From: Acidobacteriota bacterium
Lineage (GTDB): Bacteria > Acidobacteriota > Vicinamibacteria > Vicinamibacterales > JAKQTR01
Length of the DNA stretch: 55,376 nt
Assembly (NCBI GenBank): GCA_026393755.1
Contig: JAPKZO010000030.1
Span: forward strand, 17,970-73,345
Direction: 5' to 3'
Shown: positions 51,558 to 55,376 of the stretch, one piece after another
Numbering within the stretch: the stretch's first letter is position 1
Layout of the letters: every line of letters begins with the position of its first letter
The notes under the pieces: model-generated
What the model was told of the DNA's origin: nothing
The model's database searches: none
The model's input: only the letters and a program-made list of their open reading frames with translations
Made by a program: the position numbers and the translations under genes

Positions 51558-52775
51558 CTATATCGTGTGAATCAGCAGCGCGTCCCGCAGCTTCGGCTCG
51601 AACCATGTGGACTTGGGCGGCATAATCCCGCCCGCGTCGGCAATGCTCATCAAGTCCGTGACGCTCACCGGGAACAGCGAAAACGCCACCGCCGCCTTGC
51701 CTGAGGCCACAAGTTTCTCGAGCTCGGCCGTGCCGCGAATGCCGCCGACAAAATCAATGCGCTTGTCGGTCCGCACGTCCGCGACCTTCAGCACCGGGTC
51801 GAGCAGGTGCTCCTGCAGGATGCTGACATCGAGACGGCTGATCACATCGGATCCGGCGCGGGCGCCGACATCGAGCGTGTACCACTTGCCGGCGACGAGC
51901 ATCGCCACATCGCCCTTCTTCGCGGGTGTCGCCGGGCCGCCGTCGCGCACGGCAAACCTCGCCTTGACGGCCTGGAGAAACGCGTCGGGCGTCAGACCCG
52001 CGAGATCCTTGACCGTGCGGTTGTACGGAAGGATCTGGGTCTGGTTGTCTGGGAATGCCACCGCGAGGAACCAATCGGCCTCGACGACACCGTCGCGGCC
52101 GATCTCCCGTCCGATCGTCTTTCGCGCCCGGGCGGCGCTGGCTGCCCGATGATGCCCGTCCGCGATGTAGACCGCCGGGAGCGCACGAAATGCCTCGACG
52201 ACCTGAGTCAGGTCGGCGCCGGTCACCTTCCACACTGTGTGGCTGATGCCATCGGGCGCCACCAGGTCGTAGAGCGGCGCGGTCGCAGCCACGCGGGCAG
52301 CCACGGCGTCCACCGCGGCCGATGCCCTGTAGGTCAGGAACACCGGGCCGGTCTGGGCGCGCAGTTCGGTGATGTGGCGCGTGCGATCGTCTTCCTTGTC
52401 GCGCCTGGTCCGCTCGTGCTTCTTCACCAGCTCCGCGTCGTACTCATCGACCGAATAGCACGCCGCCAGGCCGGTCTGCGTATGGGATCCCATGCGCAGC
52501 CGGTAGAAGTACACGGCGGGAATGCCTTCCTCGACCATGTGCGGCCGCATGCGCGCGAACCGCTCGGCAGCCGTTCGATACACGATGTCCGCGTACGGAT
52601 TCGTGTCGGGAGGCAGATCGATCTCGGCGCGGGAGACGTGCAGGAAGCTGAGGTCGTTGCCTGACGCGAGCGCGCGCGCTTCCTCGGTGTTGACCACATC
52701 GTACGGCACGGCCGCGATGCGCGAGGCGAGCGAGGGCTCGGGCCTCAGGGCTCGGAAGGGTCGGATGACAGCCAT
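51558..52775 (-). CDS. DUF1015 family protein in the serine biosynthesis cluster
   Basis: 405 residues. Family marks: MAVIRPFRALRPEPSLASR, VPYDVVNTEEARALA, SFLHVSRAEIDLP, the central motif ADGHHRAASAARARK (about 203-217) and a C-terminal block DFVGGIRGTAELEKLV. The family has no published function that I can vouch for, but its genes often lie with serA and serC. The DGHHR-x-AA motif is reminiscent of the box II motif of ParB/sulfiredoxin-fold proteins, some of which phosphorylate free serine. A role in serine metabolism is inferred from context. Start ATG at 52775; an extension of 11 codons is possible. Confidence 0.9.
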   Translation of the reverse strand: MAVIRPFRALRPEPSLASRIAAVPYDVVNTEEARALASGNDLSFLHVSRAEIDLPPDTNPYADIVYRTAAERFARMRPHMVEEGIPAVYFYRLRMGSHTQTGLAACYSVDEYDAELVKKHERTRRDKEDDRTRHITELRAQTGPVFLTYRASAAVDAVAARVAATAPLYDLVAPDGISHTVWKVTGADLTQVVEAFRALPAVYIADGHHRAASAARARKTIGREIGRDGVVEADWFLAVAFPDNQTQILPYNRTVKDLAGLTPDAFLQAVKARFAVRDGGPATPAKKGDVAMLVAGKWYTLDVGARAGSDVISRLDVSILQEHLLDPVLKVADVRTDKRIDFVGGIRGTAELEKLVASGKAAVAFSLFPVSVTDLMSIADAGGIMPPKSTWFEPKLRDALLIHTI

Positions 52776-53295
52776 GTGATCTCGCGATCTGCAGCATCGC
52801 GTCCCCACATGGGCGCGATGCCGCCTGAAGAAAAAGGAAGGGGCCTGTACTCATGTCCCGGCCGATGGTGAGCGGTCCGCAACCGTCCGCTCGTCGAGCC
52901 GGAACCACACGTGCTCCCGGGATGCCCCGCGAACGGCACCCCCGTCTGACTAGTGAAGCAAGAAGCGGCCCGGGTGTCAACTGTCTGGAGTCAGGGCCAT
53001 GGAGGGCGGAGGGAGGGACGAATCCCTGGGATCGCCGGGCTCCCCGGCTTCGCTCGTTGAGCTTCGTCGAGGTCTCGCCGTAGCGCTCCGACGCCGAGGT
53101 GGACAGCGCGGCCCGCGTCCAAGCGGCGATGGAGCGTCGCGGTCCCAGGAAGATGCCATGATGACACCCACGGAAGCTGTAACGTGGCGATCTCGGGGGA
53201 CATATCTGACGCGGCCAACGGGGAGACAAACCGCCCGCGCCGTCGAGTCGTTTCTCTGCCTGGCGGGCTGATCCGACGTAGTATTGGCGGCGAAT
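52776..53295. other. 520-base intergenic region, hairpin only
   Basis: Between the divergent DUF1015 and HipA-like genes. A hairpin with arms GCATCGCG (52794-52801) and CGCGATGC (52814-52821) lies 18 bases upstream of the DUF1015 start and belongs to the GGGCGCGAT repeat style. A segment near 53025-53050 (AATCCCTGGGATCGC) is echoed at 29730. No convincing ORF, RNA gene or riboswitch is seen. Confidence 0.45.
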
Positions 53296-54090
53296 ATGGA
53301 AGAGACATGGGAGGCCGTCCGATTCGAGAGGGTCCAGCCGAAGGGGCGGACCAAACCGCTCCTGTTGGAGTGTGCGCGAGACGCCGAGAAGGGTGAAGAG
53401 CGCGTCAGGTTCATTGTGAAAGCACTCGGATTGCCGGAGATACACGAGGCGTCCCTATGTCAGGAGTTGTTGGGCTGCAGGTTAGCCAGGCTGTTCGGGA
53501 TGGCTGCGCCGATGGCTGGCCTGGTAAACATCTCGACTGAATTTCTTGCCGCCATAGCTGTGGATGTGCAGCAAGGTGGCGTCAGTCCATCCGCGGGTTT
53601 GGCCGTCGGCGTTGAATTGGTTCCCAACCTGCAAGTGTTCCCCGCATCGCCGGGGCTGACACTGGATGAGGTCACGGAAGCTGCCAGGATCTACCTGTTT
53701 GACATGATCAGCCAGAACGCTGACCGGCGACCCGAAAGTCCCAATTGTGGCAGAGCCGACGGCAGGATTGTGCCGTTCGATTTCGAAAACGCGTTCAGTT
53801 TCAGACTCGCGATACTCAAGTCGGATCCATGGCGTATCAGCGGACTGACCTTCGCCAATAAGCACCTGTTCTTTCACTCCTTGCAGGAGCACGGTTCCGA
53901 GGTCAAATGGGGCGACGTGTTTGCTCCCTTCGAATCCGTTCCTGCCGGGGCGGTTGCCAACACATGTGGTACGATTTCAGCAGCGTGGCACGCCATTGGT
54001 GCTGCAATCCACGCCCACTTCGAGGCCGTCTTCGCTCACTGGCTAGAGTTCAAGCGGGAAGTTTTCGCCACTCTCGGGGTGTCGCCATGA
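53296..54090 (+). CDS. HipA-like kinase (HipA_2 type)
   Basis: 264 residues. A small kinase-like fold: the candidate ATP lysine Lys42 in VRFIVKALG, then helices (SLCQELLGCRLARLFGM), the catalytic-loop-like QNADRRPESPN (140-150, with Asp143 and Asn150 in the place of DRHxxN of HipA), and the metal-site Asp162 in VPFDFENAF. It is much shorter than E. coli HipA (about 440) and lacks its N-terminal subdomain. The family often stands beside a DUF3037 gene, as here: stop and next start overlap (ATGA, 54087-54090). No HipB-type helix-turn-helix antitoxin is adjacent. ATG at 53296 follows TAGTAT at 53279-53284; a TTG 12 bases earlier is also open. Confidence 0.75.
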   Translation: MEETWEAVRFERVQPKGRTKPLLLECARDAEKGEERVRFIVKALGLPEIHEASLCQELLGCRLARLFGMAAPMAGLVNISTEFLAAIAVDVQQGGVSPSAGLAVGVELVPNLQVFPASPGLTLDEVTEAARIYLFDMISQNADRRPESPNCGRADGRIVPFDFENAFSFRLAILKSDPWRISGLTFANKHLFFHSLQEHGSEVKWGDVFAPFESVPAGAVANTCGTISAAWHAIGAAIHAHFEAVFAHWLEFKREVFATLGVSP

Positions 54091-54926
54091 CGAAACATGC
54101 CTATTCGTACGTCGTTCTTCGCTACGGGCCGGATCCCGGCGCGGGAGAAGGCCTCAACATTGGTGTCGTCGTGTACAGCCAGCAGGTCAGGTTTCTTCGA
54201 CTCCTGGTTGACTCCCACTACGAGCGGCTGTCGCAGGCGTTCGCGGGATTCGACGGGCTCACATTTCGCAGGGCTGTGGCCAACATTGTGATTGTCTTCA
54301 GGGCTGCCGAAAGAACCTTCCGGGAGAGTCCGCTCTTCGTAAGCGATCGGTCCTTCGTCGAGTGGTTGACCACGCTCATGCCCGACACCGGCGCAGCCCT
54401 GTCGTTTACACCGGCCCGACACGGCATCACGAGCGATCTCGATCACGAAATCACCGTGTTGTTCGACCGGATGGTCGAATCCCAGAAGGCCCATGCCGAT
54501 GAGAGACCGCGGCGCGACGACGGTCAGGTGTGGAGGGAGTGCGTGGGCAAACTGTCCAACGTAGTGTCCGGCCAGATGACGAGGAAGTCATTCGCGACGT
54601 CGAGCGTGAAGGTTGACTTCGATCACGCCGTGAAGAACGGCCGTTGGCATGTTGTTCAGCCGCTGTCGATGGACTTCAAGCGCGCTGAGTCGTTGCAGCG
54701 AAAGGCGTCCCAGTGGGTCGGCACGGCCGTGGGCTTACACGAGGCGGCGGACTTGGGCACGATCATCTTTCTGATGGGTAGACCATCGTCAGGAAGTCGC
54801 AAGGCGTACGAGCGTGCGAAGGCGTTGCTCAACCAGGTGCCCGTCGACCACCAGATCATCGAAGAGCAGGAGACTGATAAGTTGAACCGCTCCTTGCTGG
54901 CCTTGCTCGAGCAGCACCACGAATAG
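54087..54926 (+). CDS. DUF3037 family protein, partner of the HipA-like kinase
   Basis: 279 residues. Opens with YSYVVLRYGPDPGAGEGLNIGVVVYSQQ, which is the family hallmark (a strand, then a conserved xNIGVV strand). The rest is mainly helical with VRFLRLLVDSHYERLSQAF and, near the end, VDHQIIEEQETDKLNRSL. DUF3037 has no assigned biochemical role that I know. Its gene overlaps the kinase stop by 4 bases, so the proteins are made together and probably act together, perhaps as a toxin-antitoxin or defence pair. ATG at 54087 was chosen as it begins the hallmark segment; the longer frame is shadow of the kinase gene. Confidence 0.8.
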   Translation: MTKHAYSYVVLRYGPDPGAGEGLNIGVVVYSQQVRFLRLLVDSHYERLSQAFAGFDGLTFRRAVANIVIVFRAAERTFRESPLFVSDRSFVEWLTTLMPDTGAALSFTPARHGITSDLDHEITVLFDRMVESQKAHADERPRRDDGQVWRECVGKLSNVVSGQMTRKSFATSSVKVDFDHAVKNGRWHVVQPLSMDFKRAESLQRKASQWVGTAVGLHEAADLGTIIFLMGRPSSGSRKAYERAKALLNQVPVDHQIIEEQETDKLNRSLLALLEQHHE

Positions 54927-55069: not shown

Positions 55070-55376
55070 TCAGCGCAAAAAAGGGGGAAGGGCCGAGTGG
55101 GTAATGCAGCCTCGGAGGTTGCGACGGTGGGCACGAATGGTCTGCAAGGAGTCGATCACGGCGACCATCAGCTCCGGGAGATCATGCGCCTGGCCATTCG
55201 CGAGTCGTTGCTTGGCCAACTTCCAGACGCCCTCGTGGGGGTTGAACTCTGGCGCATAGGCCGGGAAGCGTCGCAGGTGCATCCTCGTGGTGCGCGCGCA
55301 CAGCTCCGGTACGAGCTTGCCTCGATGGGGATTTCCGCCGTCCCACAAGACGACGATGTGCCCGCGGATCTGCCGG
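55070..55376 (-). CDS. IS630-family transposase, C-terminal part (cut by window edge)
   Basis: The frame enters from the right edge and ends at TGA 55070-55072, giving about 102 residues. HIVVLWDGGNPHRGK holds the second catalytic Asp of the DDE domain; RFPAYAPEFNPHEGVWKLAK holds the final Glu in the NPxEGVW pattern of IS630/Tc1-mariner transposases. The N-terminal helix-turn-helix and first Asp lie beyond the window, so intactness cannot be judged. It is convergent with the HipA-like/DUF3037 pair, with 143 bases between them, and marks the region as accessory. Confidence 0.88.
   Translation of the reverse strand, partial: RQIRGHIVVLWDGGNPHRGKLVPELCARTTRMHLRRFPAYAPEFNPHEGVWKLAKQRLANGQAHDLPELMVAVIDSLQTIRAHRRNLRGCITHSALPPFLR

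Follow-up and report, generated by a model that had tools for sequence, protein, structure and literature searches.

A HipA-family kinase and DUF3037 gene pair of the PDC-M66/HipAD anti-phage type on a recent insertion in an Acidobacteriota genome

Two anti-phage systems described in the literature pair a HipA-related kinase with a DUF3037 protein. DS-6 (HipAD) of E. coli, for which PMC13092281 cites Brenes and Laub 2025, consists of two genes, the products of which are a kinase related to HipA and a protein with DUF3037 and DUF1829. Defence was lost when a residue of the kinase predicted to be catalytic was mutated, and AlphaFold3 predicted both a complex of the two proteins (ipTM 0.76-0.79) and DNA binding by DS-6B (PMC13092281). 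The Retron-Sda1 locus also has a HipA/DUF3037 pair, labeled PDC-M66 by its authors; deletion of the kinase removed all defence and deletion of the DUF3037 gene was toxic, whereas the retron reverse transcriptase (RT) and ncRNA were dispensable for defence (PMC12548924). Exactly such a kinase and DUF3037 pair is already contained in PADLOC-DB 2.0.0 (2023), as PDC-M66A and PDC-M66B.

The DNA analyzed here (the whole stretch of 55,376 nt, hereafter the window) corresponds to bases 17970-73345 of contig JAPKZO010000030.1 (C30) of an Acidobacteriota bacterium (assembly GCA_026393755.1). It contains, on the forward strand, a gene for a kinase of 264 aa (53296..54090; PDC-M66A/DS-6A-like) and a gene for a DUF3037 protein of 279 aa (54087..54926; PDC-M66B/DS-6B-like), overlapping in an ATGA stop/start (54087..54090). 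An original prediction, made from the sequence, had described a short HipA-like kinase lacking the HipA N-terminal subdomain and a HipB partner, and overlapping with a DUF3037 gene; all of these features were confirmed. The active-site residues Lys42, D143-RRPESPN150 and Asp162 are present, and K42, D143, N150 and D162 are invariant across the six closest kinases aligned, which constitute a close clade. The Pfam search that had been proposed as a check matched both families: HipA_2 (PF20613) in the kinase, with an E-value of 1.3e-6 and a score of 28.3 bits, barely above the cut-off of 27, and DUF3037 (PF11236) in its partner, with an E-value of 6.7e-13. The DUF3037 domain occupies residues 8-130 and is followed by a C-terminal alpha/beta domain (residues ~143-279). 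The N-terminal subdomain of HipA is absent, as judged from the length of the kinase, the detection of HipA_2 alone by Pfam, and the alignment of the structural model to the kinase part of HipA. No ORF that could encode HipB or HipS separates the pair from its flanking genes, and Pfam and NCBIfam revealed HipA_2 alone in the kinase and DUF3037 alone in its partner, with NCBIfam itself returning nothing useful for either protein. Direct sequence searches of the PDB with both proteins gave no matches; a profile built from the kinases reached PI4KII, CtkA and HipA, weakly, and a profile built from the DUF3037 proteins gave no credible match.

Both proteins matched the PADLOC models nearly end to end: the kinase matched PDC-M66A (1e-37; residues 6-256 of 264, profile positions 14-265 of 270) and the DUF3037 protein matched PDC-M66B (2.8e-49; residues 4-278 of 279, profile positions 2-279 of 281). 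Gene order and adjacency are the same as in PDC-M66, the sequences have diverged, and no other difference was found. The sampled relatives were all PADLOC-positive (20/20 DUF3037 proteins for PDC-M66B and 22/22 kinases for PDC-M66A). With DS-6/HipAD, compared by description rather than by sequence, the window pair shares a two-gene organization, a HipA-related kinase, a DUF3037 protein and the lack of HipB, but DS-6B is reported to carry DUF1829 in addition to DUF3037. No Pfam match to DUF1829 was obtained, at E-values up to 1, in the window protein and 19 relatives (20 in all), though a separate C-terminal domain is present. The Retron-Sda1 pair belongs to the same two families, but it adjoins a type III retron RT and ncRNA, neither of which was seen at the window pair (window genes and the first 2 kb of contig C33 from the same genome, the C30-C33 interval downstream of the pair being unassembled). 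An RTasPolA match in the window was rejected as a retron RT, as the gene concerned is that of DNA polymerase A. HipBA and HipBST share the kinase fold and catalytic residues with the window kinase, and HipT also resembles it in missing the HipA N-terminal subdomain; these systems have HipB or HipS, whereas the partner in the window is DUF3037. The window pair is, thus, a further member of the anti-phage toxin-antitoxin type already described as HipAD, DS-6 or PDC-M66. The toxin or defence module originally predicted is well supported, but it is not uncharacterised, given its listing as PDC-M66 and its validation as DS-6/HipAD and at Retron-Sda1; nor does a DUF3037 partner represent a new type, since it is already in PADLOC-DB 2.0.0 and has been shown to be anti-phage (PMC13092281, PMC12548924).

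The pair very probably constitutes a two-gene HipA-kinase/DUF3037 anti-phage module of this kind, carried on a small insertion, in which the kinase is a toxin held by DUF3037 and freed on infection. Whereas the two families, the catalytic residues, the gene overlap, the co-occurrence, the fold and the insertion were demonstrated directly, we infer the toxicity, neutralisation and defence of the window pair from its tested relatives. By analogy with them, the kinase would be a growth-arresting Ser/Thr kinase toxin, and the DUF3037 protein, which would be translated from the shared transcript in a coupled manner, would bind the kinase and keep it off. Phage infection would then release the kinase, and the resulting arrest or death of the host would limit the spread of the phage. 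At a guess, based on HipA and HipT, the substrate might be an aminoacyl-tRNA synthetase or a translation factor. With this locus, a defence type that was validated only recently is now seen in a genome distant from the strains tested, and there is evidence that it arrived by insertion.

To gauge how often the two families go together, we analyzed 297 genomes from this phylum. A HipA_2 gene lay directly upstream, on the same strand, for 62 of the 66 DUF3037 matches; one of the four unpaired matches is close to a contig end, and the kinase ORF preceding another (G116) is truncated. Both families were present in 46 genomes, DUF3037 only in two, HipA_2 only in two and neither in 247 (Fisher value 5e-49, which ignores genome relatedness and is indicative only). 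The pairing suggested by the original prediction is, thus, far above chance, and the refuting outcome named with that prediction, a chance-level co-occurrence, did not arise. Three subtypes were apparent in this phylum sample. The first (subtype a; L006-L035) has a single-domain DUF3037 protein of ~130 aa, paired with a HipA_2 kinase with an intact active site in 30/30 cases. The second (subtype b), to which the window pair belongs, has a DUF3037 protein of ~280 aa, and the 4-base overlap of the window genes is present in most of its members. The third (subtype c), from one family of the phylum, has a long DUF3037 protein, usually encoded 15-100 bases downstream of the kinase gene. All eight subtype c kinases inspected (L094, L095 and L097-L102) read NxNGRQ, as opposed to the NxDR(x)n found elsewhere, in most cases followed by an Asn further on, and PADLOC still assigned those sampled to M66A. 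They look like pseudokinases, because the catalytic Asp and the loop Asn have been lost, and, from their sequences, subtype c looks like a conserved DUF3037-paired clade that is apparently catalytically dead. The measured co-occurrence and the three subtypes are available for comparison, and the subtype lacking the catalytic Asp, together with the C-terminal domain of DUF3037, provides concrete handles on the triggering of the system. Close versions of the window pair (39-66% identity) were found in only 4 of 161 further genomes from the order, and in none of the other four genomes of the family. A contig scan of the genomes recovered only two relatives; scanning with the broad alignments A1 and A2 was precluded by their diversity. 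A search of 50,697 phage records with P0002 gave no match.

The position of the pair was compared with that in a sister species (G143), in which the DUF1015 gene is followed, after ~240 bases, by an M23 peptidase gene. The gene-free region of ~520 bases originally noted upstream of the kinase is real (52770..53295, about 526 bases), and yielded no match to a sigma-70-like promoter. Its first ~200 bases are conserved (~87% identity to the sister species until ~52966) and the remainder is unrelated. Homology restarts at base 2045 of C33, at the site of the M23 gene, and the pair therefore sits inside an insertion, the left edge of which, judged by alignment, is at ~52966; synteny suggests that C30 and C33 are linked. 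In G346, DUF1015 and M23 are also adjacent, which supports insertion in the window genome rather than loss in the sister species. The kinase gene has the lowest GC content (0.585) of the called window genes of at least 200 aa, and a GC3 of 0.68, versus a mean of 0.81 (sd 0.05). The insertion and the low GC and GC3 of the kinase gene mark the pair as a recent arrival when compared with the sister species, and the horizontal movement originally proposed is well supported. The IS630 element reported next to the pair is present as the 3' part of a DDE_3 transposase gene (55070..55375, reverse strand; Pfam), but it is cut by the contig end rather than by decay. The window ends exactly at base 73345, the end of C30; the gene is thus interrupted by an assembly break at a repeat, and its truncation is uninformative on decay. 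Matches to the IS630 end sequence also occur in contigs C11 and C5 and, over 28 bases at 86%, in C33, and the facing ends of C30 and C33 both bear it. A 46-base stretch (53104-53149) matches the end of the sister species' M23 gene with 82% identity, and related tails occur in about ten places of the sister genome. This stretch was dropped as an insertion edge; the M23 gene on C33 is complete, and the recurrence of the tail at many places indicates a dispersed repeat. The DUF1015-M23 site was also rejected as a defence hotspot, two other family members carrying hydrolase and sulfatase-like genes there (named by eye).

The far side of the insertion (C33:1-2045; L112) encodes a protein with a tRNA-editing domain, together with DUF433 and DUF5615 proteins, a pair resembling a further toxin-antitoxin system. 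This DUF433/DUF5615 pair, the IS630 ends of the insertion and the patchy distribution within the order would be consistent with an addiction or stabilisation role, in which the kinase and DUF3037 genes keep the inserted island without any real anti-phage function. We consider this explanation unlikely, because related pairs from this family confer protection from phage (PMC12548924, PMC13092281) and several relatives adjoin restriction-modification or retron genes.

Structural models were obtained for the kinase (pLDDT 76, pTM 0.79) and the DUF3037 protein (pLDDT 81, pTM 0.67). The folds nearest to the kinase model were those of CtkA (Z 14.7, 212 residues aligned, 3.4 A), PI4KII (13.9), HipT (12.4) and HipA (12.2). 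CtkA, a Helicobacter pylori kinase, is thus the closest solved fold, but it stands alone, has 10% identity to the window kinase and belongs to other biology. The DUF3037 model folds into two separate domains, N- and C-terminal, and for the latter the best structural matches were mostly PD-(D/E)XK proteins (BstEII, with a Z of 7.7, Cdn1, PspGI, ERCC1 and XisH), all with Z <8 and mixed with GTPases. A PD-(D/E)XK identity is therefore weak, with unrelated folds scoring alike, and visual inspection of the alignment showed no conserved D...(D/E)xK. It is conceivable, if improbable, that this half of the protein is a PD-(D/E)XK-like domain that is catalytically dead but binds DNA, so that the antitoxin itself would sense foreign or damaged DNA and drop the kinase; if true, it would supply the missing trigger of the family. 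The same domain and the DNA binding predicted for DS-6B by AlphaFold3 (PMC13092281) would also fit a DUF3037 protein that serves not as a simple antitoxin but as an adaptor or a sensor of DNA, the kinase acting mainly on a phage or DNA-bound target. We find this doubtful, given that the C-terminal domain scores no better than Z <8, with GTPases alike, and that deletion of DUF3037 is toxic at Retron-Sda1, as expected of an antitoxin (PMC12548924). An inactive remnant beside a decayed IS is highly improbable: some relatives are broken (an in-frame stop in the DUF3037 gene of G317 and the truncated kinase ORF of G116), but both window ORFs are intact, their catalytic residues and overlap are conserved, and it is only the contig end that cuts the IS short.

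The PADLOC scan of the window genes revealed no second convincing defence gene, and the other matches seem to be cross-hits on the genes for sigma-54 activators, ABC transporters and DNA polymerase A. Elsewhere, within about five genes of window-type pairs, we found a type III methyltransferase (L087), type IIG restriction enzymes (L005 and L090) and HEC-05 (L004); the pattern is read as an association, not as enrichment. Window-type pairs were also found on plasmids. On plasmid NZ_CP015231.1 of Tritonibacter mobilis F1926 (L083:7159-9997), the kinase, DUF3037 and type III-A retron RT (1.1e-119) genes are consecutive, and this locus is a further case of the Retron-Sda1 arrangement; identity to the window proteins is 18% for the kinase and 16% for DUF3037. 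Window-type pairs are also carried by viral contigs (L104-L107), among them the IMG/VR contigs L105 (8001-9712), L107 (7198-8822) and L104, the fetched stretch of which covers the DUF3037 gene alone (1-822). One of the viral-contig pairs adjoins a ParA-like gene and an integrase-like ORF (named by eye), and an apparent DUF5131 (phage Gp37/Gp68-like) gene lies near the pair of L105.
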